A stretch of 32,263 nucleotides of DNA, taken from a virus. The notes beneath the pieces are model-generated. The model saw nothing but the letters and a program-made list of their open reading frames with translations. It had not been told where the DNA came from and ran no database searches. The first letter of the stretch is position 1. Each line of letters begins with the position of its first letter. The DNA is taken from positions 1-32,263 of the IMG/VR virus record IMGVR_UViG_3300022074_000209. One strand, given 5' to 3'. Shown here piece by piece: positions 1-9,800 of the stretch. A program made the translations under genes and the position numbers.

Positions 1-1
1 A

Positions 2-163
2 CTACCAAAGTTCAAGTATCGTGCAAAGTACGGACGAATGTATAGTCATCATGTTTGCGAGGATTGTAAAAGAAAATACATCCTCGACAACATGTTACAG
101 AATCACTCAACATTAGAATGGAGGTGCATTAGATGCCACAACGCAAGAAGAAAAGAACGTTAA
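2..163 (+). CDS. Zinc-ribbon small protein, 5' end cut by window
   Basis: An open frame runs in from the left edge and stops at 161-163, giving 53 visible residues. It carries two Cys-X2-Cys pairs (CEDC and CIRC, visible residues 19-22 and 42-45) separated by 19 residues, followed by a basic tail, which is the pattern of a zinc-ribbon or zinc-finger fold. The family is not recognised. The last 31 bases overlap the next gene in another frame, which fits tight phage packing. A Met codon at 38 could be an internal start, so the gene may be shorter than it looks. Function is unknown; nucleic-acid binding is only a guess from the basic residues and zinc site. Confidence 0.55.
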   Translation, partial: LPKFKYRAKYGRMYSHHVCEDCKRKYILDNMLQNHSTLEWRCIRCHNARRKER

Positions 164-423
164 TTCAACGTTTGACAGACGAATTTTTTCGTTTGAGACC
201 AAAAGTGAGACGTGATCCACGGACCAAGGAGCATTTATTGGTTACACATAAGTATCACAGAGTAGAAAATATACTAAGAAAGAGATATGGTGATCTATAC
301 GTTATGACTATCCTTAACGTTGGTTCCATCATCATAGATGAGAAAGGAGAAGAACATGATATGTTTCAATTGCAAAGGGAATGGATTTCTAAGGCTAAGC
401 TGGGAAGGAGAACGAAGCATTGA
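133..423 (+). CDS. Small basic hypothetical protein
   Basis: A 96-residue protein that starts at an ATG preceded by a GGAGGT Shine-Dalgarno at about 120-125. The N-terminus is strongly basic (PQRKKKRT), and the whole protein is rich in Lys and Arg with a short hydrophobic stretch around MTILNVGSIII. It overlaps the preceding gene by 31 bases and the following gene by 68 bases in different frames. No family is recognised. The good ribosome site and basic composition support a real gene; binding to nucleic acid is possible but unproven. Confidence 0.6.
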   Translation: MPQRKKKRTLIQRLTDEFFRLRPKVRRDPRTKEHLLVTHKYHRVENILRKRYGDLYVMTILNVGSIIIDEKGEEHDMFQLQREWISKAKLGRRTKH

Positions 424-604
424 ACAATGCAAAGTATGTAACTCGCAGGGCGAAGTTAAGAATGATGAGCACTTTCACCAGTATTGGGACGACGGCGCAG
501 GCTCACCTACCTACTATTACGGTCCGCCGCTTGACGTCGAAGGAGATGAAGGCTTTAAAAACTACGAAATTTATCCAACCCTCACCAGTATTGACAGTTG
601 GTAA
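356..604 (+). CDS. DnaJ-type zinc-centre small protein
   Basis: An 82-residue protein beginning MICFNCKGNGF. It holds CFNCKGNG at residues 3-10 and CKVCNSQGE at 25-33, so CxxCxGxG followed by CxxCxxxG, which is one zinc centre of the DnaJ cysteine-rich fold. Such lone modules are common in phages and have no single known role. The start at 356 is chosen over the in-frame ATG at 338 because AAAGGAGA lies at 343-350, correctly spaced for 356. The C-terminal half is acidic and aromatic (HFHQYWDDGAG, YYYGPP). It overlaps the 133-423 gene by 68 bases. Confidence 0.65.
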   Translation: MICFNCKGNGFLRLSWEGERSIEQCKVCNSQGEVKNDEHFHQYWDDGAGSPTYYYGPPLDVEGDEGFKNYEIYPTLTSIDSW

Positions 605-656
605 AGGGGAAGAGCCACCTTTTTAGTTGCGAACTTTTCCATTTTACTCTATCTTT

Positions 657-691
657 CGGGGTGAGAAATATTTTTTCATTTTTCACTCCCG
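657..691 (+). other. Imperfect stem-loop between genes
   Basis: CGGG at 657-660 can pair with CCCG at 688-691, GTGA at 661-664 with TCAC at 683-686 (one bulged T), and the A-rich side with a T-run, enclosing an AT-rich loop. No U-tract follows the outer stem, so this is not a standard terminator; it could be an attenuator or RNA stabiliser. The rest of the 605-758 gap shows nothing else I can support. Confidence 0.3.
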
Positions 692-758
692 AGAAGGGGC
701 TGTCAGATAAGATCAACGATCATTCCAAGGCGGCCCCGTAAAAAGGAAAGGACGTAAA

Positions 759-1163
759 ATGGTTATTAAAAGCATAATAAAACTCATACCAGGGTTTAAA
801 CCTACGCCTAAATCAGGCACAGTCAGCACAATACAAAAATCTGCATCTAGGTTTGTTAAAAGAAGAAAACAGTTAGGTGGTGCTAAGTCAGTAATGCCTG
901 TCAAGAAAGCCATGGGTGGTCAAGCGTCTGAATCAGTTGCAAGAAGCAAGATTCTTAAAGAGCAGAGAGATAGAAAAAGACAAAGTTTACTTGATTCAAT
1001 TAATAGAACGCCTGGCGGTGCAGGAAAACCTAAAATTGTACCAAAGAAAAAGCCAAGAAAAGACCCACCAAAGCCAAGAAAACTTAGTGATGATCCACTA
1101 GCTCCTAAAAGCAGTGATGAAATCAAAGCATTAATAAATAAATTAAAACAGCAATTAAAGTAA
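759..1163 (+). CDS. Basic KAMGG-motif protein
   Basis: A 134-residue, very basic protein. Residues 50-54 are KAMGG, a motif shared almost identically at codon level with the genes at 20457 and 24044. The C-terminal half is a Pro/Lys-rich linker (KKKPRKDPPKPRK) followed by a short acidic and helical end. AAAGGAAAGG lies just upstream as the ribosome site. The stop overlaps the next start (TAATG at 1161-1165). No catalytic motif is visible. It may be a packaged or DNA-binding small protein; function is unknown. Confidence 0.7.
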   Translation: MVIKSIIKLIPGFKPTPKSGTVSTIQKSASRFVKRRKQLGGAKSVMPVKKAMGGQASESVARSKILKEQRDRKRQSLLDSINRTPGGAGKPKIVPKKKPRKDPPKPRKLSDDPLAPKSSDEIKALINKLKQQLK

Positions 1164-1381
1164 TGAACCACGAAGAAATCCTGAAGCAGAGGGACCTATT
1201 AGACACAATCCTCGCCTCACGGACCAACCAACTCGATAGAATTGAAAACATGAAAATTATGGACTCAATATATTTTAAGAAAAATTTACCCAAGAATGTG
1301 GTGCTATTTCCATTACAAAGGATAAAAAGATATGTACACAACACTTCCATCAAGCCCAATAAGAACAGTAAAAAAGTGTAA
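1163..1381 (+). CDS. Hypothetical small protein
   Basis: A 72-residue protein starting one base inside the preceding stop (TAATG), a typical sign of translational coupling. The N-terminal half looks helical and charged (MNHEEILKQRDLLDTIL), and the C-terminal half is basic. No family is recognised. Its end overlaps the next zinc-site gene by 50 bases. Confidence 0.5.
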   Translation: MNHEEILKQRDLLDTILASRTNQLDRIENMKIMDSIYFKKNLPKNVVLFPLQRIKRYVHNTSIKPNKNSKKV

Positions 1382-1532
1382 TAAATGCCCGAACTTCCAT
1401 GTGGAGTTCTTCAACCCTAAATTTAACAGAACCTATACCCCTATTGAATGGGAAAGAATAGTTACAGATGGTAGAGAGGCATTGGACAAAGCACTGCGAT
1501 TAGTTAAGGAAGATCCTAAGTTTTTTGGTTAA
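1332..1532 (+). CDS. Small CxxC...H zinc-site protein
   Basis: A 66-residue protein with CNKCPNFHVEFF near residues 16-27. A Cys-X2-Cys followed by His suggests half of a zinc site. The C-terminal half is amphipathic helix (DGREALDKALRLVKED). AAAGGA at about 1316-1321 lies ten bases before the ATG. It overlaps the preceding gene by 50 bases. No family is recognised. Confidence 0.5.
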   Translation: MYTTLPSSPIRTVKKCNKCPNFHVEFFNPKFNRTYTPIEWERIVTDGREALDKALRLVKEDPKFFG

Positions 1533-1590
1533 ATGTCGTTTTATATAGATGTTTTTAGTCAAGTAGTTACACTTTCTTTTTTATTAGACT

Positions 1591-1690
1591 ACCAAGTAAC
1601 AAGGTAACAAGGTAACAAGTAGCAGAATACTTACCTTTTTTGTTACTTACAAGGTATTTTATAGGTAACAAGAAGTAACAAATTACTAAA
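1591..1690 (+). repeat. Iteron-like GTAACAAG repeats before terS
   Basis: Three tandem copies of GTAACAAG (units of 8) run from about 1596 to 1619. After an inverted TTGTTACTTAC copy at 1640-1650, two more GTAACAA units lie near 1664-1682. The 1533-1753 gap is otherwise AT-rich with no gene. Repeats in this place, just before terS, could be binding sites for the small terminase or for a transcription regulator. No database comparison was possible. Confidence 0.55.
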
Positions 1691-1701
1691 ATAACTCGAT
1701 T

Positions 1702-1731
1702 TTGCTAGGTTTTATAATAAAAATATATTAT
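1702..1731 (+). promoter_or_regulatory. Candidate promoter for terS
   Basis: TTGCTA at 1702-1707, an 18-base spacer and TATTAT at 1726-1731 resemble a sigma-70 promoter. A second TATAAT at 1713-1718 lacks a clear -35. The predicted leader to the terS ATG at 1754 is short and has no Shine-Dalgarno. Confidence 0.35.
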
Positions 1732-1753
1732 CTTGTAAAAAACATCTATTGAA

Positions 1754-2278
1754 ATGAGCGAATTAGAAGAAGTAAAATTACCAGATGCATTATCGGACTT
1801 ATTGTTTGATAGAAACATAACACAGAAGCAACGCAAGTTTATTCTGCTGTTTGTCCATTCCGAAGGTTTGAAAACTGCAACTCAATGTGCTGTGGAAGCT
1901 GGATATGCAGCTGGTTCTGCGAAGGTACGGGCGTCAGAGTTACAAAACCCAGACAGATACCCACTTGTTGCAAAAGCAATTGATGCAGAGCGCCGTGCTG
2001 CTGTTGAAAGGTACAAGTGTAGTCAGGAGCGTTCTCTTTCTACATTGGCTAGAATTAGAGATCAGGCTTCAGCTGCTGGTAATTATAATGCTGCCGTAGC
2101 TGCAGAAACCAGGCGTGGCCAGATAGCAGGTTTGTATGTGGACAAGAAAGAAATCTTAACAGGTACTATTGATTCAATGTCAAGAGAAGAGGTTGAGAAA
2201 AAACTACAGGACTTGAAAGAACAATACAGTATTGAAACAACATTTGAAGAAGTAAAAGAATTAGAAAATAAATCTTGA
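1754..2278 (+). CDS. terS: Terminase small subunit
   Basis: A 174-residue protein of the Terminase_2 small-subunit type. It recognises phage DNA and hands it to the large subunit during packaging. Residues 22-70 show the family signature: ITQKQRKFILLFV, then an AGYA turn in a helix-turn-helix, then the ASELQNP...VAKAI stretch. The rest is helical oligomerisation region with an acidic, Lys-rich tail. It lies 3.1 kb upstream of terL rather than next to it. No Shine-Dalgarno precedes the ATG. Its stop codon TGA sits inside the -35 box of the following promoter. Confidence 0.88.
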   Translation: MSELEEVKLPDALSDLLFDRNITQKQRKFILLFVHSEGLKTATQCAVEAGYAAGSAKVRASELQNPDRYPLVAKAIDAERRAAVERYKCSQERSLSTLARIRDQASAAGNYNAAVAAETRRGQIAGLYVDKKEILTGTIDSMSREEVEKKLQDLKEQYSIETTFEEVKELENKS

Positions 2279-2303
2279 CTATAAGATTAGTTGGGAGTAT
2301 ATA
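2275..2303 (+). promoter_or_regulatory. Promoter P1 (TTGACT-17-TATATA)
   Basis: TTGACT at 2275-2280, spacer of 17, TATATA at 2298-2303, with TTGGGAG directly before the -10. It is the first of four related promoters. The terS stop codon (2276-2278) lies within the -35. It would drive the small genes from 2326. Confidence 0.7.
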
Positions 2304-2325
2304 GGTTTTAGAAAGAGAGGAAGCT

Positions 2326-2544
2326 ATGCATATAGATAAATACGTAGTGAATAATATCGGTCCAAAGTGGACTAATGGTAAAGTTAAAAAGAATCAATTG
2401 CTTGATAGTCTTGATGGTACTGATGGTATTGAATTAAAAAAGTTAGTGCCTTTGTTAGAGCAGTGGTTTGAAACTGTTACTGGAGGATGGTCTGATAAAA
2501 AGGTTGAGTTAGTTATTAATGTTAAGGAGGAAGATAGAAAATGA
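2326..2544 (+). CDS. Hypothetical protein, first gene after P1
   Basis: A 72-residue protein preceded by GAAAGAGAGGAAG as ribosome site. It looks like a small globular domain (GPKWTNGKVKKNQLLDSL, then a helix LKKLVPLLEQWFETV). The end overlaps the next gene as ATGA at 2541-2544, so the two are probably co-translated. No family is recognised. Confidence 0.6.
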   Translation: MHIDKYVVNNIGPKWTNGKVKKNQLLDSLDGTDGIELKKLVPLLEQWFETVTGGWSDKKVELVINVKEEDRK

Positions 2545-2741
2545 CAAATTATAGAGAGGGAGTTATGAGCCCTGTGAAAATGTTACAAACTATTTCTGGT
2601 ATTTGTAAGACCAATGGTAAGATTGATTGGAACAACACTGGTCAGACACCAGAAGATGAGTTTAGGTTTATAGCTAATATGATAGATACTTATCTTGAAG
2701 ATCAAGACAAGGGCAGTGAGGGTGCAAATCAAGATGACTGA
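2541..2741 (+). CDS. Hypothetical acidic small protein
   Basis: A 66-residue protein coupled by ATGA to the gene before it. AAGGAGGAAG ahead of its start is a strong Shine-Dalgarno. The C-terminal half is acidic and ends in DD. It is part of the P1 operon of mini-genes. No family is recognised. Confidence 0.6.
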   Translation: MTNYREGVMSPVKMLQTISGICKTNGKIDWNNTGQTPEDEFRFIANMIDTYLEDQDKGSEGANQDD

Positions 2742-2859
2742 GGAGCTGTTTTGGAATCGTGTTGGTTGGTTACGACATGCTATGATTACTGCAGAACATT
2801 TTGAGTTTCGCCTCTTGTGGTATTGGAAGCTACAAGATTTGATGAGAAAGCAACCATGA
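2734..2859 (+). CDS. 41-residue Trp-rich mini-protein
   Basis: The ATG at 2734 opens a 41-residue frame beginning MTEELFWNRVGWLRH and ending at TGA 2857-2859. It overlaps the previous gene by 8 bases and the next by ATGA, so it fits a coupled chain with no gaps. Four Trp residues in 41 and an amphipathic character suggest a membrane-surface or helix-packing peptide. The family is unknown. Confidence 0.5.
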   Translation: MTEELFWNRVGWLRHAMITAEHFEFRLLWYWKLQDLMRKQP

Positions 2860-2960
2860 TACAAATTGTGTTATTGTTGTTTGTAATACTCTTTGCCATG
2901 CATTGGAAAATTGCATTAATAGTTTTTGGTTTTATATATTATTTTGGTTGGCCCTTCTGA
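2856..2960 (+). CDS. 34-residue membrane mini-protein
   Basis: The ATG at 2856 overlaps the preceding stop as ATGA. The product begins MIQIVLLLFVILFAMHWK and continues ALIVFGFIYYFGWPF, so it is almost entirely hydrophobic, with one or two membrane segments around a single Lys. The stop TGA at 2958-2960 overlaps the first two bases of the tRNA. A pinholin, antiholin or superinfection-exclusion role is possible; nothing in the sequence decides it. Confidence 0.5.
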   Translation: MIQIVLLLFVILFAMHWKIALIVFGFIYYFGWPF

Positions 2961-3034
2961 TCCCATAGCTCAGATGGTAGAGCAATTCACTTTTAATGAA
3001 TGGGTCGCAAGTTCGAGCCTTGCTGGGATCGCCA
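2959..3034 (+). tRNA. tRNA-Lys (anticodon UUU), CCA encoded
   Basis: A complete cloverleaf of 76 bases. The acceptor stem is GATCCCA paired with TGGGATC, the D-stem GCTC/GAGC, the anticodon stem ATTCA/TGAAT with loop CTTTTAA (anticodon TTT), and the T-arm GCAAG TTCGAGC CTTGC. A discriminator G and encoded CCA follow. It reads AAA/AAG, the dominant Lys codons in this lysine-rich, AT-rich genome. It is jammed between two genes: the upstream stop overlaps it by 2 bases and the next ATG follows one base after CCA. Confidence 0.95.
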
Positions 3035-3035
3035 C

Positions 3036-3449
3036 ATGAAACCAGAGTCAAAGTTGTGGCAGTTGGTCAAGAAAAACATTACTTCCATTCATTGGACTAG
3101 ATTAGAATCTTGGGCTATGCCTGGTGTACCAGATGTCTTCGGCATCCAGGACGGCATCAGCGTTTTTGTGGAGTTGAAAGTAACTCGCAGTAATAAAATA
3201 GGTTTATCTGCCTTCCAAAAAAACTGGCTATATAACCATTATTTGCAAGGTGGCAGAAGTTTTATTATGCTTCAGCACCTCGGACAGAGGACACTCTACA
3301 TATTTCCAAGTTCCATTCTCCATTCTCCACTGACAATCACCTCGGCCCCTCATTATAGGGTAGAGCTCCCTGCATCCCCAGCAGCCTGGACTCAGGTGGC
3401 TGAACACCTTCTCCATTATCCATTGCCAGAGCCCAACCAACAGGTATAG
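3036..3449 (+). CDS. VRR-NUC-like nuclease (PD-(D/E)xK fold)
   Basis: A 137-residue protein starting MKPESKLWQLVKKN. Residues P32-D33, then V45-E46-L47-K48, then FQKNWL at about 60-65 give the D-X12-ExK plus downstream Gln pattern of VRR-NUC and Holliday-junction-resolvase-like nucleases. Phage copies typically cut branched or replication-intermediate DNA. The in-frame ATG at 3000 lies inside the tRNA and is rejected. The ATG at 3036 is one base after the tRNA and has no Shine-Dalgarno. From about 3260 onward the base composition rises sharply in GC, unlike the first half, which may mark a recombination joint. Confidence 0.8.
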   Translation: MKPESKLWQLVKKNITSIHWTRLESWAMPGVPDVFGIQDGISVFVELKVTRSNKIGLSAFQKNWLYNHYLQGGRSFIMLQHLGQRTLYIFPSSILHSPLTITSAPHYRVELPASPAAWTQVAEHLLHYPLPEPNQQV

Positions 3450-3496
3450 TAATAAAGGTCAGGTCTCCCTGGCAGCTGGTGCAGCCAACAGGATCT

Positions 3497-3599
3497 CCAT
3501 TTCCATTGTCAACCGTTACTAACCGTTACATGTGTATAAGGGATATGGTGCAGCCCACACCAGTCTGATTTCCGTGGAACTTAATCTTCTTTTTACCTC
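3497..3599 (+). promoter_or_regulatory. Upstream regulatory module, copy A
   Basis: Contains in order CCATTTCCATTG (3497-3508), a tandem repeat AACCGTTAC at 3511-3519 and 3521-3529, TATAAGGGATA from 3535, a TGGTG/CACCA stem (3546-3550 with 3558-3562) and TTCCGTGG (3570-3577), then promoter P2. The same order of elements occurs in copies B and C. The rest of 3450-3699 holds only this module, P2 and its leader. Confidence 0.5.
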
Positions 3600-3628
3600 T
3601 TGACTATCTAATAAGATGGGACTATATA
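3600..3628 (+). promoter_or_regulatory. Promoter P2 (TTGACT-17-TATATA)
   Basis: TTGACT at 3600-3605, spacer of 17 ending ATGGGAC, and TATATA at 3623-3628. This placement rules out the ATG at 3616 as a start codon for the following gene. Confidence 0.7.
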
Positions 3629-3635
3629 AGTATCA

Positions 3636-3679
3636 GGGTCGGCACCGAATCCGTTTAGAAGTTCCTAGGACACCGACCC
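3636..3679 (+). other. Structured 5' leader of the P2 transcript
   Basis: GGGTCGG at 3636-3642 pairs perfectly with CCGACCC at 3673-3679, enclosing about 30 bases, just upstream of the ATTAGAAAGG ribosome site. It is a possible RNA switch or stabilising hairpin; no known riboswitch is recognised. Confidence 0.45.
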
Positions 3680-3699
3680 ACATTAGAAAGGTAGAAACG

Positions 3700-4035
3700 A
3701 TGACTGAAGCATTAAAGAAAGATTACGAGAAGACCTGCGCAGAGCGCATAGACGAACAGTGGCAGCAGAGGCGAGAAGATCTGTCAGATCCTGAGTTTGA
3801 AGGACTCGGGTTTGACTACGTTGAGCCGCATACATTCACCGACCAACTAGAAGGATACTGGCGTTGGCAGTTCTCCTGGGGCGGGCCCAGCGACGAGCTG
3901 CGAGCATATGTAAACGAACTTAAAGAAATACATCGCCTGGAATACTGGTTCATGGACTGGATGGACGGTGCGAAGCTGGAGCTGCAGCCAGGACCTGAAT
4001 GGCAGAGGATGGAAGAGATGATTGAGGTTTCCTAA
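3700..4035 (+). CDS. Hypothetical acidic, Trp-rich protein (GC-rich gene)
   Basis: A 111-residue protein beginning MTEALKKDYEKTCAERIDEQ. The start at 3700 is chosen because GAAAGG at 3686-3691 precedes it and the longer frame to 3616 would begin inside promoter P2. It is helical, acidic and rich in Trp (WQQRRED, YWRWQFSWGG, YWFMDWMDG, PGPEWQRM). No family is recognised. Base composition is about 55% GC in the 60 bases counted by hand at 3721-3780, far above the roughly 30% counted at 8041-8100, which suggests acquisition from another source. It overlaps the next mini-gene as TAATG. Confidence 0.65.
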   Translation: MTEALKKDYEKTCAERIDEQWQQRREDLSDPEFEGLGFDYVEPHTFTDQLEGYWRWQFSWGGPSDELRAYVNELKEIHRLEYWFMDWMDGAKLELQPGPEWQRMEEMIEVS

Positions 4036-4130
4036 TGATCCTGCTCATTACATTGCTTTTTGCATCGCATCACCCATACCTGGGTGCAGCGGTTTTGGCT
4101 GTGTACCTGGCGTGGACATCACTGTGGTAG
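4035..4130 (+). CDS. 31-residue membrane mini-protein
   Basis: The ATG at 4035 shares a base with the previous stop (TAATG). The product MILLITLLFASHHPYLGAAV plus LAVYLAWTSLW is hydrophobic throughout except for a His-His-Pro centre, so it is a membrane peptide with one or two short helices. It is the second such mini-protein in the terS-terL interval. The longer TTG-start frame covering 4022-4258 is rejected. A lysis-timing or exclusion role is a guess. Confidence 0.45.
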   Translation: MILLITLLFASHHPYLGAAVLAVYLAWTSLW

Positions 4131-4146
4131 CACGGTGTCTCCACCT

Positions 4147-4241
4147 CCATTCCATTACACATAGCTTTTGGTATAGGGTATATATAGGGATACACAGGAG
4201 TCCCTGCACAAGTTGCACGGAAGTTCCTGTTGAAAAAAGAT
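4147..4241 (+). promoter_or_regulatory. Upstream regulatory module, copy B
   Basis: Same element order as copies A and C: CCATTCCATTAC (4147-4158), TATATAGGGATA from 4181, a small AGGGA/TCCCT stem (4186-4190 with 4201-4205), GTTCCTGTTG (from 4223), then promoter P3 at 4242. Confidence 0.5.
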
Positions 4242-4270
4242 TTGACAGGTATAATTAAATGGGATATAAA
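4242..4270 (+). promoter_or_regulatory. Promoter P3 (TTGACA-17-TATAAA)
   Basis: TTGACA at 4242-4247, a spacer of 17 ending AAATGGGA, and TATAAA at 4265-4270. It is the closest of the four to the sigma-70 consensus and lies 35 bases before the gene at 4305. Confidence 0.72.
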
Positions 4271-4304
4271 GGGATAATTAACAGAAAGACGAAAGGATAA
4301 AATA

Positions 4305-4718
4305 ATGTCGAAAGCAGTTAATATATTAGAAGTGCTAGAAAAAGCTCATCAGAGTTCAGCTAGTGTAAGTAAAAGAAATAAACAAGCTATCATAGATGCC
4401 TATGGTCGTGCCTTAACAATGAAGAAAGTATTAGACGATTTCATCAAAGTAAATCGTAATCTTATTATTGATATGGGTATCAGCGAGAACGCAAACCTAT
4501 TACATGGTAAGGACTACTCTTTACACGTAACACAAAAACTATCTGTAAAGGTTGATAGTAAGCTTGTTAAGGAAGCACTTGGCGAGTTGGAATACCACAA
4601 ATGTAAAGTGCCAACACAATACAAACAAATACAAGCAATGCCTAATGAAGAGGCAACAGTTCGCAGAAATAGGAAAGCTACAATTGAAGAAGTAGCTGAC
4701 TTTAAGATTACTGCTTAG
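4305..4718 (+). CDS. Hypothetical protein under P3
   Basis: A 137-residue protein with CGAAAGGAT as ribosome site. The first half is helical (ILEVLEKAHQSSAS, RALTMKKVLDDFIKVNRNLI). The middle is probably beta (GKDYSLHVTQKLSVKVDSKLVKEALG), and the end is basic then acidic. No family is recognised. It is followed 25 bases later by a very stable UUCG hairpin, so it probably forms a one-gene transcription unit with P3. Confidence 0.65.
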   Translation: MSKAVNILEVLEKAHQSSASVSKRNKQAIIDAYGRALTMKKVLDDFIKVNRNLIIDMGISENANLLHGKDYSLHVTQKLSVKVDSKLVKEALGELEYHKCKVPTQYKQIQAMPNEEATVRRNRKATIEEVADFKITA

Positions 4719-4743
4719 TTCCGATATATGCCTAAGTAGTATT

Positions 4744-4761
4744 GGGCGACTTCGGTCGCCC
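4744..4761 (+). terminator. UUCG tetraloop hairpin after the 4305 gene
   Basis: GGGCGAC (4744-4750), loop TTCG (4751-4754), GTCGCCC (4755-4761): seven perfect GC-rich pairs closed by a UUCG tetraloop. The following bases are ATTTCC rather than a U-run, so it may act as a terminator with help or as a 3' end stabiliser. Confidence 0.6.
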
Positions 4762-4873
4762 ATTTCCATTACCCATTACTTAGGACTAGTGCTACTATAG
4801 TATATAAGGATAGTAACACCATGCAGACGGAGTTCCGTGGGTCGTGTCAAGTAAAAAAAGTTTTCGAATGTTC
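4760..4873 (+). promoter_or_regulatory. Upstream regulatory module, copy C
   Basis: CCATTTCCATTACCC (from 4760), an inverted repeat (4789-4798 with 4810-4819, nine of ten pairs) flanking TATATAAGG, and TTCCGTGG (4833-4840), then promoter P4. This is the third copy of the same arrangement. It starts inside the foot of the UUCG hairpin. Confidence 0.5.
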
Positions 4874-4902
4874 TTGATTATAAAATAGAATGGGAGTACA
4901 AG
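4874..4902 (+). promoter_or_regulatory. Promoter P4 (TTGATT-17-TACAAG)
   Basis: TTGATT at 4874-4879, a 17-base spacer ending AATGGGAG, and TACAAG at 4897-4902. The -10 is poor, but the spacer is nearly the same as in P1-P3 and ATTAGAAAGGAG follows at once. Confidence 0.5.
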
Positions 4903-4925
4903 ATCATTAGAAAGGAGAAATCACA

Positions 4926-5174
4926 ATGCCAGATAATGATGACTACTTATCTCGTCAGTTGCAAATGGTTAGCCAACAGTTCGGTTTAACTAATCCAACT
5001 GATCAACCAATTACTAATCAGCAACACGTTGATAATATTAATTGGAAAGCACTTTATAAAGTTCTTGAGAGTGAAGTTGAAACTGTGATCCTTGATCCTA
5101 ACTGTCCTAGTTATGTCAAGGAATGGGGTCAACGTATCATGTCCAAACTAGCCGAACACTTACCAAGAAGGTAA
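4926..5174 (+). CDS. Hypothetical protein under P4
   Basis: An 82-residue protein with AGAAAGGAGAA as ribosome site. The N-terminus is Gln/Asn-rich (SRQLQMVSQQFGL, TNQQHVDNINW). The C-terminal half looks like a compact helical domain (ALYKVLESEVETVI, YVKEWGQRIMSKLAEHL). A good terminator follows at 5199, so P4 to 5223 is one unit. No family is recognised. Confidence 0.65.
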   Translation: MPDNDDYLSRQLQMVSQQFGLTNPTDQPITNQQHVDNINWKALYKVLESEVETVILDPNCPSYVKEWGQRIMSKLAEHLPRR

Positions 5175-5198
5175 GTTACCCACGTGGGCTGGTACGAA

Positions 5199-5223
5199 GG
5201 GCAGGTTATCCTGCCCTTTTTTT
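5199..5223 (+). terminator. Rho-independent terminator
   Basis: GGGCAGG (5199-5205), loop TTAT, CCTGCCC (5210-5216), then seven T residues (5217-5223). It closes the accessory interval before terL. Confidence 0.92.
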
Positions 5224-5235
5224 ATGTCCAATCAC

Positions 5236-5288
5236 CTGCTGCCTGGCAGCAGCACACCAGTTCCCCAGGCAGCACACCCGTATCCCAG
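5236..5288 (+). repeat. GC-rich palindrome and 20-bp tandem repeat before terL
   Basis: CTGCTGCC-T-GGCAGCAG (5236-5252) is a perfect odd palindrome. It overlaps two adjacent 20-base repeats, 5249-5268 and 5269-5288, which agree at 17 of 20 positions and both begin GCAGCACACC. A further palindrome, CCCAATTTGGG, lies at 5351-5361. The 5224-5386 stretch has no convincing gene. It could be a packaging site or a recombination scar. Confidence 0.65.
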
Positions 5289-5386
5289 TCAGGTTAGGTA
5301 CTTAAAACCGACCAGAAACACCATATCTAGTATCTCGACCCCCCACCACACCCAATTTGGGGGCGTTGCTGTGCAGTGTCTGTAAA

Positions 5387-5422
5387 GTGTAAGTTTTACA
5401 CGAACACAGATTATGATATAAC
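5387..5422 (+). promoter_or_regulatory. terL promoter with operator-like inverted repeat
   Basis: TTTACA at 5395-5400, a spacer of 16 and TATAAC at 5417-5422. A perfect inverted repeat, GTGTAA-GTT-TTACAC (5387-5401), covers the -35. The expected start of transcription is only a few bases before the ATG at 5434, so the message may be almost leaderless. Confidence 0.5.
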
Positions 5423-5433
5423 TTTTTTCAATT

Positions 5434-6873
5434 ATGTCACAAATCCCAACGGAAGTTTTAAAATACGAATTAAGAAAGTTTCAAATAAAAGTGGCCGAGG
5501 AGTCCCGTTCCTCCTACCTTACATTTGTAAAAAAAGTTTGGCCTGACTTTATTGCAGGTTCACATCACAAAATTTTTGCACAAAAATTAGAAGACGTTTC
5601 ACGTGGAAAGATAAAAAGATTAATTGTTAACATGCCACCAAGACATACAAAGTCTGAGTTTGCTTCACATTTATTTCCTGCGTGGATGATGGGTAAGAAT
5701 CCTAAGCTAAAAATTATACAAACTACTCACACAGCAGAGCTGTCATATAACTTTGGTAGAAAGGTTCGTAACTTGTTTGAGCAAGATGAATTTAAAGAAG
5801 TATTTTCTGATGTAACACTATCTCAAGATTCTAAGGCAGCAGGTCGTTTTACAACAAACAAGGGCGGCGAATATTTTGCTGCTGGTGTAGGAGGAGCAAT
5901 CACAGGACGTGGTGCAGATTTATTAATTATTGATGACCCACACTCGGAGCAAGATGCCCTGTCACAAACAGCACTAGACAATGCTTACGAATGGTATACC
6001 TCGGGCCCCCGCCAACGTCTCCAGCCTGGTGGCTCTATCGTCATTGTTATGACCAGATGGTCCACGAAAGACCTAACAGGAAAATTAATGAACAATCAAA
6101 CAAATCCAAATGCCGACCAGTGGGACGTGGTTGAGTTTCCTGCAATCTTGAACGAAGAACCACTATGGCCTGAGTTTTGGAAACTATCAGAGCTAGAAGG
6201 TGTCAAAGCATCTTTATCCGAACAAAAATGGCAAGCTCAATGGCAACAAAATCCTGTATCCGAAGAAGGATCAATTATTAAACGAGAATGGTGGCAGATG
6301 TGGGGTAATGAAAAGATACCAGATCTTATGCATATTATTCAATCATATGATACAGCTTTTAGTAAACGTGAGACGGCAGACTTTAGTGCTATCACAACGT
6401 GGGGTGTATTTCGACCCGTGGAACACGGACCACCGCACATTATACTTCTTGCTATGCGTAAAGGCAGATGGGACTTTCCTGATTTAAAAAGGATTGCTTT
6501 AGAAGAATATCAATACTGGGAACCCGAAACAATTTTAGTTGAAGCAAAAGCTTCTGGTATGCCGCTTACACACGAACTACGACAAGTGGGTATACCTGTT
6601 GTAACCTATACACCAAGCAAAGGTAATGATAAGTTTGTTCGTGTAAACTCTGTAGCTCCTATTTTTGAAGCTGGACAAGTATGGGCGCCAGATGAACGCT
6701 GGGCAGAAGAAGTTATTGAAGAATGCGCTGCTTTCCCTTATGGTGATCATGACGATTTAGTTGACTCAACGACGCAGGCGTTGTTGCGATTCAGACAAGG
6801 TAACTTCATACAATTGGAGTCAGACTATGCTGATGAACCTACATACATAGAACAACGAGAATATTACGGATGA
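5434..6873 (+). CDS. terL: Terminase large subunit
   Basis: A 479-residue packaging motor that uses ATP to drive DNA through the portal and cuts the concatemer. The Walker A-like PPRHTKS lies at 68-74, and Walker B LLIIDD at 163-168 is followed by PHSE. A coupling-type MTRWS is at 206-210. The RNase-H-like nuclease begins with SYDTAFS (304-310), has VEAKASG further on, and ends with GDHDDLVDS. Length is normal for the family. No Shine-Dalgarno is visible before the ATG. The stop overlaps the next start (ATGA at 6870-6873). Confidence 0.96.
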   Translation: MSQIPTEVLKYELRKFQIKVAEESRSSYLTFVKKVWPDFIAGSHHKIFAQKLEDVSRGKIKRLIVNMPPRHTKSEFASHLFPAWMMGKNPKLKIIQTTHTAELSYNFGRKVRNLFEQDEFKEVFSDVTLSQDSKAAGRFTTNKGGEYFAAGVGGAITGRGADLLIIDDPHSEQDALSQTALDNAYEWYTSGPRQRLQPGGSIVIVMTRWSTKDLTGKLMNNQTNPNADQWDVVEFPAILNEEPLWPEFWKLSELEGVKASLSEQKWQAQWQQNPVSEEGSIIKREWWQMWGNEKIPDLMHIIQSYDTAFSKRETADFSAITTWGVFRPVEHGPPHIILLAMRKGRWDFPDLKRIALEEYQYWEPETILVEAKASGMPLTHELRQVGIPVVTYTPSKGNDKFVRVNSVAPIFEAGQVWAPDERWAEEVIEECAAFPYGDHDDLVDSTTQALLRFRQGNFIQLESDYADEPTYIEQREYYG

Positions 6874-9800
6874 AAAGAAAAGAAGCAAAAGATAAATTTT
6901 ATGGTCAAGATGATGTAGATATCTTTGAAGGTGGACCTGCTGGACAAACACTCAAAGACATAGATCCTAATTACGGTGGTATTCAATTAGAACAAGACGA
7001 ACTTATAGGAGATCAATTCTCCAGAGATCTAGCAAGATTTACGAAAGGAGTAACTGAATTTATTTCACCTTCTCCTGAAACAATAGCTAAACAAGATGAA
7101 CAGAGAGCACAGAACCAAGCTGTTTTTAATGCAATATTAGAAATTACAGGAAAGGATGCAGACTCCTTTGAGGGACAAAAACTTTTATCTGATCTAAGAA
7201 GAGACTCTGAATTTCAAAAAAATTTAGGGTTTCAAGATGAAGGCATACTTGGAGGAGGAGGTACAACAGATCAACCCATTTATGGATTATATGACATAGG
7301 TAATTTTTTATTTGGAGACGCAAGAAGAGGTCTGACTGAAATGACAGAAAAAGGCACGAAATATAAGGAGCTGCCTTTTGAACAAAAGCTTGGTATTGCT
7401 ATACTACCTATAGATTTAATTGATGTAGGAGGTTTAGCTTATTTAGCAAAGACACCAATCGGCGCTCTTATGAGAGCTGGTCAAAAAACATTCGGTAAGG
7501 GATCTAAACTCACTGTCAAACAACTAGTGGATGATCCTGAGTTTATGTCAAATTATTTAGAACAAAATCCAAATGCTATAAAAACTTTAAAAGATTATGG
7601 TTTTGACATCGAAGCTAGATATGCATCAGGTAAAAAGAAGCGTGGTCCAACGCCAATAGAGAGAGACACGGGATTGGAAATACTCGGAAGAGATTTTTTA
7701 CAAGAACAAAAACAAATTAAACCTGGTGTTGACCCTCAATTAGAAAAAGCAGCTAAAGAAGCAGATCAAGTTGTAAATAATTTTAGTCAAAAATATGAAA
7801 AAGCGTATGCATCTGGAAAAAATAGAAAAAGAGTTTTAAATAAACTTAGAAAAGATGTAGGCGAAAAAGAATTTGATAGATTAGAAAAACTTTCAATACA
7901 AAAAGGTTTAAGCAAAAAAAGAAATTTAGCACCAGAAGGATCAGTAAAAAAAACTACACCAGAAGGTGAAAAATTTATTTTAGAAAATTATGATAAAATG
8001 AGTAACAGGGAGTTACAAGCTATCATGTCATCTGATGAGAATGCCAGTAAATTTTTTTATACCGACTCATCAGGCAATATAAATATACCACAAGATAGTT
8101 ATTTTAGAGCTTACCTTGCAAATACATTAGGCCAGACCAAAGCTGGCGGTATAGGTCAGGCAGGAGGAGATCAAATATCTAAATTATCAAAAGAAGCAGA
8201 TCAAAAAATTTATGATGAATTTAATATATTAAGAGAATCCGAAAATTTTAGATCAAATGATCCTGAGCAAGTAAGACAAGCTTTTGCTAAAGCTTTTACT
8301 AGTGAACAAAGTATGTCAAAGTATGCAGGCACGGATGCTTTATCTACAGAAACAAATTACCTACGTGCTTTAAATAGAAAAATAAAAACATTTAATGAAA
8401 GTCAAGGATTCGGAGTTTTTGATCCAAAAAAAGGTTTTGAAAAAGGAAGAGTTTATAACAGAGATCAGATTCAACAAATAAATAGATTTTTAAAAGTGGG
8501 TGATGAGGTAGACGGAGATAAAACTAGAATCACAAATTTATTTGGTAAATATTTAAACACAAACGATGTTTACAATAATTTAAAAAATAATATGCAAAAA
8601 CTTGATGACAGTTTTTATCCAGTTATTAATGGAAAAGTAAAAAGAGATTTTTCTACAAAACTTAAAAGATATTTAGATTTTGTAAGACAAACATCACCAA
8701 ATACAAAAGATCCTGTCAAAGGTGATTTTGGAGCTTTTATGAATGAATTTGGTTCAGATATAAATGCTTTATTAGATCCAAATTCTATTGAGTATAAAAA
8801 TTTTCAAAAATTTTCTTATCATGACAAGATTAGAGAGGAAGTAGGTAATCTTGCTAAACCATTTTTAAATAAAAGATTTCCGTCTAAAACAGGAAATACA
8901 CCTAGAAATAGTATTCAAATAGCTCACACTTTTGAAAGCAGTCAGGTAGGTAAGACAGTGGGAGAAGGCCTTGAAGGTGCTGGAATGATACCTGGTTCTT
9001 ATTATTTAGATATTTCAGAACTAAATGCAATACAGCAGCCTGTGTTAGAAAGCAGGGCTAGGGCAGCTTACAAAGAATTTAATGAAACTGGTAATAGATC
9101 AAAACTTGATGCCGTAAGTAAAGATTTAGAAAATATAGGAGCAGAGGTAGCTGTTGGTGAGTTCATACTTGGAAAGCACAAATCACTTGAAGAAAAGTTT
9201 TTAGATCTTATTGGTGGACCTCCTGGATCGCCTGAAAGAAAAATATTAAAAGATAAGTATGGAATTTCTGACGAAGAGATTGTAAATTTAGAAAAAGCCA
9301 TTGAGCTTTTAAGTGAAGGTGCAAGTAATGCTGGCATTGCACAAATGCAAAGTGGAGGCTTAGTAGGAGACGTGGACGATATATTTGAAGAAGAACAGGA
9401 GCTATTACAGCCAAAACCAAGAATTACTGTAGATTTTGGCGATGCAGCAAGAGGCACGGTCCGTCGTTTTGGTGAAGAAGAACCTGAAGATATGGTTGAT
9501 TTACCTTTATCTTCTATACAACTTGGAGATGGTCCAGAAGTAAAAGCTACAGCTGCACCAGCTCAAAAGACTTTTGATGTTGAGCCGATGGAAAATATTT
9601 TTACAGGAGAGATGGAGCAAGCAAATTTAAAATTACCTTTTTGGAAATTATTTACAACGCCACCTGTTAATGAAACAGCACCAATACCAACACCAAAAGA
9701 ATCTTTAAACAATCCAACAAAGAAACAGAAAGAAAGTTTAGAACAAGAGAAAATAAAAAAACAGGAAGATGTGTTTGATCCATCACCTGAAGACAATAAA

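Follow-up and report, generated by a model that had tools for sequence, protein, structure and literature searches.

Four predicted promoters with a common TGGGA box between the terminase genes of a phage genome fragment: a candidate operator that appears to be exchanged in a sister clade

Does a pentamer shared by several neighbouring promoters mark the operator of one regulator? This question is raised by the virus record IMGVR_UViG_3300022074_000209, a 32,263-base fragment of a phage genome analysed here as a whole (the window), and more precisely by the interval between its genes for the terminase small subunit (terS, 1754–2278, + strand; phrog_51, E 3.3e-11) and large subunit (terL, 5434–6873, + strand; phrog_38, E 2.2e-113). 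A first-pass annotation had placed four related promoters, P1 to P4, in this interval, each with TGGGA shortly before the -10 hexamer, and had taken the box for a shared operator. Of the readings weighed below, this operator idea has the best support, which now includes a comparison with related phages. For the reading as a whole, i.e., conserved sigma-70-type promoters with a TGGGA operator of one regulator, by which the units would be controlled together, we see somewhat better than even chances.

Direct reading agreed with the annotated architecture at all four sites, which fall within the terS–terL interval and consist of TTGA(C/T)(T/A), a 17-base spacer, and a TATA-like -10, the latter being TATATA in both P1 and P2. 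All of them, with their boxes and the open reading frames (ORFs) behind them, lie on the + strand. P1 (2275–2303; box at 2292–2296) reads TTGACT, a spacer ending TTGGGAG, and TATATA; its -35 overlaps the terS stop codon (2276–2278), and it is located 5' of an ORF for 72 amino acids (2326–2541). P2 (3600–3628; box at 3617–3621) has TTGACT, a spacer ending ATGGGAC, and TATATA, 5' of an ORF for 111 amino acids (3700–4035, ATG at 3700), which belongs to the nameless family phrog_36747. P3 (4242–4270; TTGACA, spacer ending ATGGGA, TATAAA) precedes an ORF for 137 amino acids (4305–4718), and its box (4260–4264) abuts the -10, one base closer than in P1, P2, and P4. Finally, P4 (4874–4902; box at 4891–4895) combines TTGATT, a spacer ending ATGGGAG, and TACAAG, and precedes an ORF for 82 amino acids (4926–5174). 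None of these four genes has an assigned function, and downstream of each promoter a purine-rich stretch is followed by the small gene. The sites thus have the sigma-70-type form, with a -35 near TTGACA and a -10 near TATAAT, 16–18 bases apart and before a gene, the -10 of P4 being weak. They do not have the usual extended -10 (TGn directly before the -10), in line with the first-pass annotation: the trinucleotide at this place is GAG in P1 and P4, GAC in P2, and GGA in P3, and the position of the box varies in relatives. Some P3 variants in relatives (L106, L176) do have TGC before the -10.

Is the box more than a chance match? In the window, the exact pattern with the spacing of P1, P2, and P4 (0 mismatches) matched those three sites only, so that the annotated absence of a further copy was borne out. 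Up to two mismatches gave 21 sites versus 22.6 expected by chance, and because this count is at chance level, only the exact pattern was informative and relatives had to decide. In a set of 87 sequences (946 kb, in which the window, L001, and L002 repeat identical sites), the composite pattern resulted in 50 matches, all on the + strand, compared to 0–1 for permuted boxes, with the exception of ATGGG (9) and GGGAT (10), both of them contained in the box when its neighbouring bases are included. A chance match was rejected based on these permuted-box controls and on the orthologous-site invariance and interval counts given below; in these sequence comparisons, the TGGGA box is beyond chance.

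Relatives were fetched without reference to the promoter, using TerL, the P4-gene product, and the P3-gene product (80 loci each, with overlap between the sets). Counted in this order over distinct upstream regions, and excluding those cut by a contig end, TGGGA was present within 110 bases 5' of the P3-gene orthologs in 16/16, 55/55, and 56/56 cases and 5' of the P4-gene orthologs in 18/18, 61/61, and 50/51. For the P2-gene orthologs (450 bases), the counts were 14/14, 42/42, and 41/41, and for the P1-gene orthologs (300 bases) 2/2, 13/13, and 20/20. The promoter pattern occurred 5' of terL in 0/94 upstream regions. Free variation of TGGGA in related phages, which would speak against an operator, was thus not seen, the box being invariant at orthologous sites within the clade.

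Complete terS–terL intervals from the protein-fetched loci, with duplicates removed on the basis of a 1-kb stretch, gave the same picture. Where TerL was at least 80% identical, all 48 distinct intervals harbored four (n = 45) or five (n = 3) coding-strand sites and lacked opposite-strand ones, while their flanks (219,288 bases) contained 0 coding-strand and 2 opposite-strand sites. Permuted boxes in the same intervals yielded 0–2 matches except for AGTGG (11) and GATGG (50); all 11 of the former and 41 of the latter were shifted readings starting at a TGGGA site, and 9 GATGG matches were not. Counting the promoter sites, three large contigs had 9, 11, and 9 copies of the bare core AAW-N4-TGGGA, versus 2–10 for permuted boxes. 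Among 22 intervals with TerL below 80%, four sites were present in 5, one site in 3, and none in 14, so that the cassette is able to move independently of its terL. Loci L289, L291, and L292 carry the TGGGA cassette with a terL only 70–73% identical, the terS of L291 and L292 being only 48–50% identical. These sequences suggest that the terS–terL interval is exchanged by recombination as one unit.

Is the box, then, separable from the hexamers? At orthologous sites in the protein-fetched loci, promoters were anchored on TTGA...TA, independently of TGGGA, and all distinct anchored sites had the box (100%), namely 22/22 for P1, 63/63 for P2, 80 for P3, and 81/81 for P4 (sites having candidate -35 and -10 hexamers). 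Left out of this count were sites near a cut edge and four upstream regions without candidate hexamers (among them L248 and L249 with TGGGA and L341 without it); at two P2 sites the script caught an earlier TGGGA first, with the usual box present as well. The rest of P4 was less conserved than its box, with one -35 base at 39% and -10 positions 3–6 at 38–89%, and spacer bases outside the box averaged 79–94%. P3 occurred in three arrangements, with TGGGA 18 bases from TTGAC (the class of the window), 16 bases, or 13 bases (43, 23, and 14 distinct sites) and a hexamer spacing of 17, 16, and 17, respectively. Because the P3 box shifts while the -35/-10 spacing stays at 16–17, the box is a separate element and not part of the -10. 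Most boxes have AA seven bases 5', which is absent from P1 of the window and from some P1 and P4 sites of relatives. Overall, the same sequence stands at all four promoters, is kept in relatives, and is independent of the hexamers. An alternative in which TATAAAAT in the spacer is the true -10 and GGGA the start was rejected, as this -10 is lost, and TTGACA-17-TATAAA kept, in those P3 variants whose box is shifted upstream by 5 bases. In relatives, A-rich tracts were also observed 5' of the -35 at P3 and P4 (L107, L110, L133), and some P4 upstream regions contain TTATCCACA, which is identical to the DnaA box consensus.

A sister clade was reached through a search for the string of a leader RNA (module M1, described below). 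Here, P2-gene orthologs are located behind a TTGAC -35 (TTTAC in the L387 type) and a TATAT -10, and the spacer contains TTATAACTAGTTATAAC or a close variant, i.e., a TTATAA-N4-TTATAA dyad in place of TGGGA. The P2-gene product is 65–69% identical in nine dyad loci with M1 and 62% identical in L419 and L420. Three dyad sites each were found in the interval of L382, L385, and L389, and those of L385 precede the P2-gene ortholog and two further ORFs. Across all loci in which a terS match was followed by 1,200 bases or more, which overlap and were in many cases fetched by one of the two motifs, the dyad form amounted to 24 copies in 11 loci and 0 on the opposite strand. The 207 loci whose TerS identity was 70% or more had no dyads and 788 TGGGA sites on the coding strand versus 0 on the opposite strand; at TerS below 36% (8 loci), the loose TGGGA pattern gave 6 coding-strand and 2 opposite-strand matches, probably mostly background. 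No locus with both TGGGA and the dyad was detected among 13 loci examined, nor across the listing of loci with a terS match. In its first form, the dyad pattern resulted in 13 matches, of which two were double readings and two (L362, and L389 at 8605) chance-like, compared to 0–1 for scrambled dyads. That the promoter frame is constant while the box is exchanged is the main reason why we prefer an operator with clade-specific regulators; such a swap suggests the behaviour expected of an operator that has its own regulator in each clade. The interval of HTVC027P (L004), a cultured relative, shows several TTGACA promoters that share TAGGAT near the -10, which may be a third type of box.

Which polymerase would read these promoters, and in which host? 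A motif scan of a collection of bacterial and archaeal genomes returned 14 stretches. One of them (L367) is contig 18 of the single-cell genome AG-910-K03 (uncultured Alphaproteobacteria) and derives from a near phage relative (TerS 96%, P2-gene 90%); because this relative sits in such a genome, an alphaproteobacterial host is likely for the phage. As to the other 13 stretches, we estimate that about 7 would be expected by chance. In AG-910-K03, sites with up to one mismatch were confined to the phage contig, and up to three mismatches gave 46+50 sites versus 64+52 for the control, so that there was no excess. Hence TGGGA as a host promoter feature or an extended -10 was rejected, given the missing enrichment in AG-910-K03 and the moving position of the box. 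Judged on their consensus sequences, CtrA and the heat-shock sigma factor do not explain the invariant TGGGA either; CtrA is described in excerpts of one publication (PMC9437464) as controlling gene expression in alphaproteobacterial phages. As for the polymerase, the sites are concentrated in one interval and were seen in none of 94 terL upstream regions, whereas promoters of a phage single-subunit RNA polymerase would also stand before the late genes. In relative G015 (first 60,000 of 63,981 bases; 80 of 84 ORFs scanned), no RNA polymerase gene was found among the best 25 of 68 Pfam and best 25 of 124 PHROG families (77 of 84 ORFs) and in 3 more ORFs. According to the parts of PMC12753301 that deal with it, HTVC027P does not encode an RNA polymerase and depends on that of the host, all of its early genes are without known function, and its gp33 and gp34 are highly expressed early to middle; we located both of these genes in its terS–terL interval. 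Our literature search found no published description of the TGGGA box or the leader RNA sequence and none of the control of the HTVC027P early genes, which is not proof of absence, and passages of PMC9599517 contain no mention of promoters.

Based on these results, the four sites would be sigma-70-type promoters read by the host RNA polymerase, one for each small transcription unit of the interval. The asymmetric TGGGA in the spacer, mostly with AA seven bases 5', would serve as the operator for one regulator, and its binding would place the small units under joint control. This regulator would most likely be phage-encoded and most likely a repressor, which would shut down the probably early genes later in infection, though for repression as the direction of control we would put the chances slightly below even. 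We infer promoter activity, early timing, a single regulator, and its phage origin. The annotated operator reading has gained support from the invariance of the box, its mobility in P3, and the swap in the sister clade, while binding by one regulator stays a putative part.

Several points weigh against this interpretation. The orientation of the box relative to the promoter is fixed, which a repressor does not need, although the sites may have arisen by duplication from a common ancestor; the poor -10 of P4 fits activation as well. One of the 51 P4-gene upstream regions in the P3-gene-fetched set (L341) is without TGGGA, and the anchoring demands TTGA and TA, so that the comparison of hexamer and box conservation is not entirely even. 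A generic sigma-70 scan gave 20 matches versus 16.8 in shuffles and included none of P1–P4, because it requires T at the last -10 position. Moreover, no recognisable DNA-binding fold was detected with Pfam, PHROG, and structure models among the small genes tested. The structure models of the P3- and P4-gene products had predicted local distance difference test (pLDDT) values of 64 and 70, respectively, the former of low confidence and the latter with three predicted helices. Foldseek with the first model (pLDDT 64) gave a best E of 0.055 and no DNA-binding candidate, and PDB profile searches with small-gene products gave best E values of 0.047 and 0.14, nothing convincing.

The fixed orientation of the box and its usual position beside the -10 are also what one would see if the promoters were switched on together from TGGGA, as the site of an activator or of a phage factor that binds the polymerase in the manner of T4 MotA, and a box that is invariant next to the poor -10 of P4 fits this as well. 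Yet P1–P3 have fair to good hexamers spaced 16–17 bases apart, P3 also being preceded by an A-rich tract, and should be active without help. Moreover, at 14 distinct P3 sites the box is shifted upstream by 5 bases, roughly half a turn of the helix, at a maintained -35/-10 spacing, which a stereospecific sigma contact would not tolerate, so that we regard activation as unlikely. The same variable position relative to the -10 argues against a binding element of a Q-like antiterminator, with which polymerase would read through terminators into terL and the late genes. The Q protein binds a DNA site inside the late promoter (excerpts of PMC6606751), and terminator-like hairpins precede P4 and terL, in a number not above chance; however, no -10-like pause element common to the four start regions was evident by eye, the upstream regions of terL are without the promoter pattern (0/94), and no Q-like gene is among the families listed for G015. 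This explanation is accordingly a poor candidate in our view.

An intrinsic element contacted by RNA polymerase, e.g., a lineage-specific variant of the extended -10, would account for an invariant box close to the -10 in most sites, but not for its shifts by between 1 and 5 bases with respect to the -10, the missing enrichment in the candidate host genome, or the replacement by another box within the same frame in the sister clade, and we give it a slightly smaller chance still than the antiterminator. Least probable, to our mind, are packaging or replication sites, e.g., for binding of the terminase small subunit, in promoter-like sequence. The repeats do adjoin terS and are concentrated in the terS–terL interval, but every copy goes with the beginning of its own gene, the box shifts at a maintained -35/-10 spacing, and its presence is independent of TerS, as L291 and L292 harbor 4 TGGGA sites despite their divergent TerS.

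A second feature of the interval concerns the leaders. Those longer than 60 nt were found in 86/94 distinct cases for P2, 20/29 for P1, 0/55 for P3, and 2/56 for P4 (motif-fetched loci included). Single-sequence folding indicated multi-hairpin inserts between P1 or P2 and the gene that differ among relatives, and 72 18-mers were common to leaders of different genes; P1 and P2 leaders of relatives thus appear to carry interchangeable structured RNA cassettes. In the window, a putative structured module, M1, is located between P2 and its gene (3636–3680, + strand), with covariation and copies in relatives. We gathered 40 distinct copies among the collected loci with the string ACCGAAYCCGUUU-N-GAA; the loop is invariant because copies were selected by that string, while the flanking stem was not selected. 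The module has a covarying outer stem around ACCGAAUCCGUUUNGAAGU, with both-side changes that preserve pairing in 6 of 7 pairs of the flanking stem. For the whole structure, 57 compensated cells were counted versus 18.5 in shuffles and the covariation score was 0.419 versus 0.184, though these shuffles ignore the relatedness of the copies and an alternative inner helix scores about equal (0.392). Against stem covariation stand the further pair types (15 versus 16.6 in shuffles) and the outermost pair, unpaired in 24 of 40 copies.

The M1 string was present in 72 stretches of viral contigs, with a TGGGA promoter at most 45 bases upstream in 32 of 49 distinct contexts, and it also precedes the P2-gene ortholog in the dyad clade. 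A covariance model of M1 gave 11 matches in 67 sources, some of which are the same contig, and several matched copies had been used in building the model; the lack of a match in 190 genomes from the class to which the candidate host belongs, obtained without a positive control, is uninformative. Rfam revealed no match to M1 in the window and 12 loci; at permissive thresholds it returned only a tRNA-Lys, a weak antisense match on that tRNA-Lys, and a sub-threshold PhrS match at 4629–4770. Several apparently closed RNA modules may stand in tandem in leaders, and one module (CTCTCCCAACATAAGAAACAGA...) also occurs between genes and is not confined to leaders (L229, leader of the P2-gene ortholog; L385, 2349–2412). 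Only tentatively do we suggest that a spacer operator exchanged between clades (TGGGA versus the TTATAA dyad) forms an immunity-like specificity system in abundant marine phages related to ones regarded as lytic, combined with undescribed interchangeable leader RNA cassettes of two genes.

Further features of the interval include a phage-borne tRNA-Lys(ttt) between P1 and P2 (2959–3034), a tRNA being present in some relatives and absent from others in the upstream regions compared. An ORF between the same promoters (3000–3449) had its best PHROG match to a family named DNA helicase (5.6e-16) and weaker ones to a Holliday-junction resolvase and an endonuclease. Terminator-like hairpins on the + strand were detected by a hairpin scan 5' of P4 (4743–4762) and between the P4 gene and terL (5196–5219, with a 10-pair stem and a T run); positions 1–7000 contain 6 such hairpins versus 5.2 in shuffles, so that the count alone lends them weak support. 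Directly 5' of terL, a perfect inverted repeat, GTGTAA-GTT-TTACAC (5387–5401), is also found in several relatives and in L385 of the dyad clade, and might serve a separate late promoter as its operator.

With regard to its relatives, the TerL of the window was nearest to those of 023Pt_psg01, HTVC027P, DSL-LC04, and HTVC023P (60–64% identity), the HTVC023P-type group supplying two of these four best matches for what is a 32 kb fragment only. This group, including HTVC027P, comprises the most abundant known pelagiphages according to excerpts of PMC12753301. A promoter set with a clade-specific box would offer a direct route to the regulator and to predicting the phages sharing it, and could be used to examine a possible mutual interference of lytic marine phages through it, while the M1 leader RNA may provide a compact, testable new RNA structure.

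HTVC023P and HTVC027P, which resemble the window in TerL, are without the four-TGGGA set, HTVC023P having one similar site 680 bases before terL and HTVC027P none. Phage early promoters with a common operator are known from lambda (OL/OR). They and the mycobacteriophage type share with P1–P4 the combination of sigma-70-type phage promoters with a common binding sequence, and the site recognised by a mycobacteriophage immunity repressor, which acts on it as a monomer, is asymmetric (excerpts of PMC9283540). Unlike in these repressor systems, no repressor was found among the small genes tested here and no integrase among the families listed for one relative, and in contrast to mycobacteriophage stoperators, which are genome-wide, the sites stand at promoters of one interval (0 + 2 in the 219,288 flanking bases). 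The lambda Q binding element lies between the -35 and the -10. As a phage-specific DNA element inside a promoter, it resembles the TGGGA box, which differs in being present at four promoters instead of one, without an evident pause element and with a variable position. With the extended -10 (TGn-TATAAT), finally, the box has in common a TG-containing sequence 5' of the -10, but its TG is placed at -18/-17 in P1, P2, and P4 instead of -15/-14, and this position varies.

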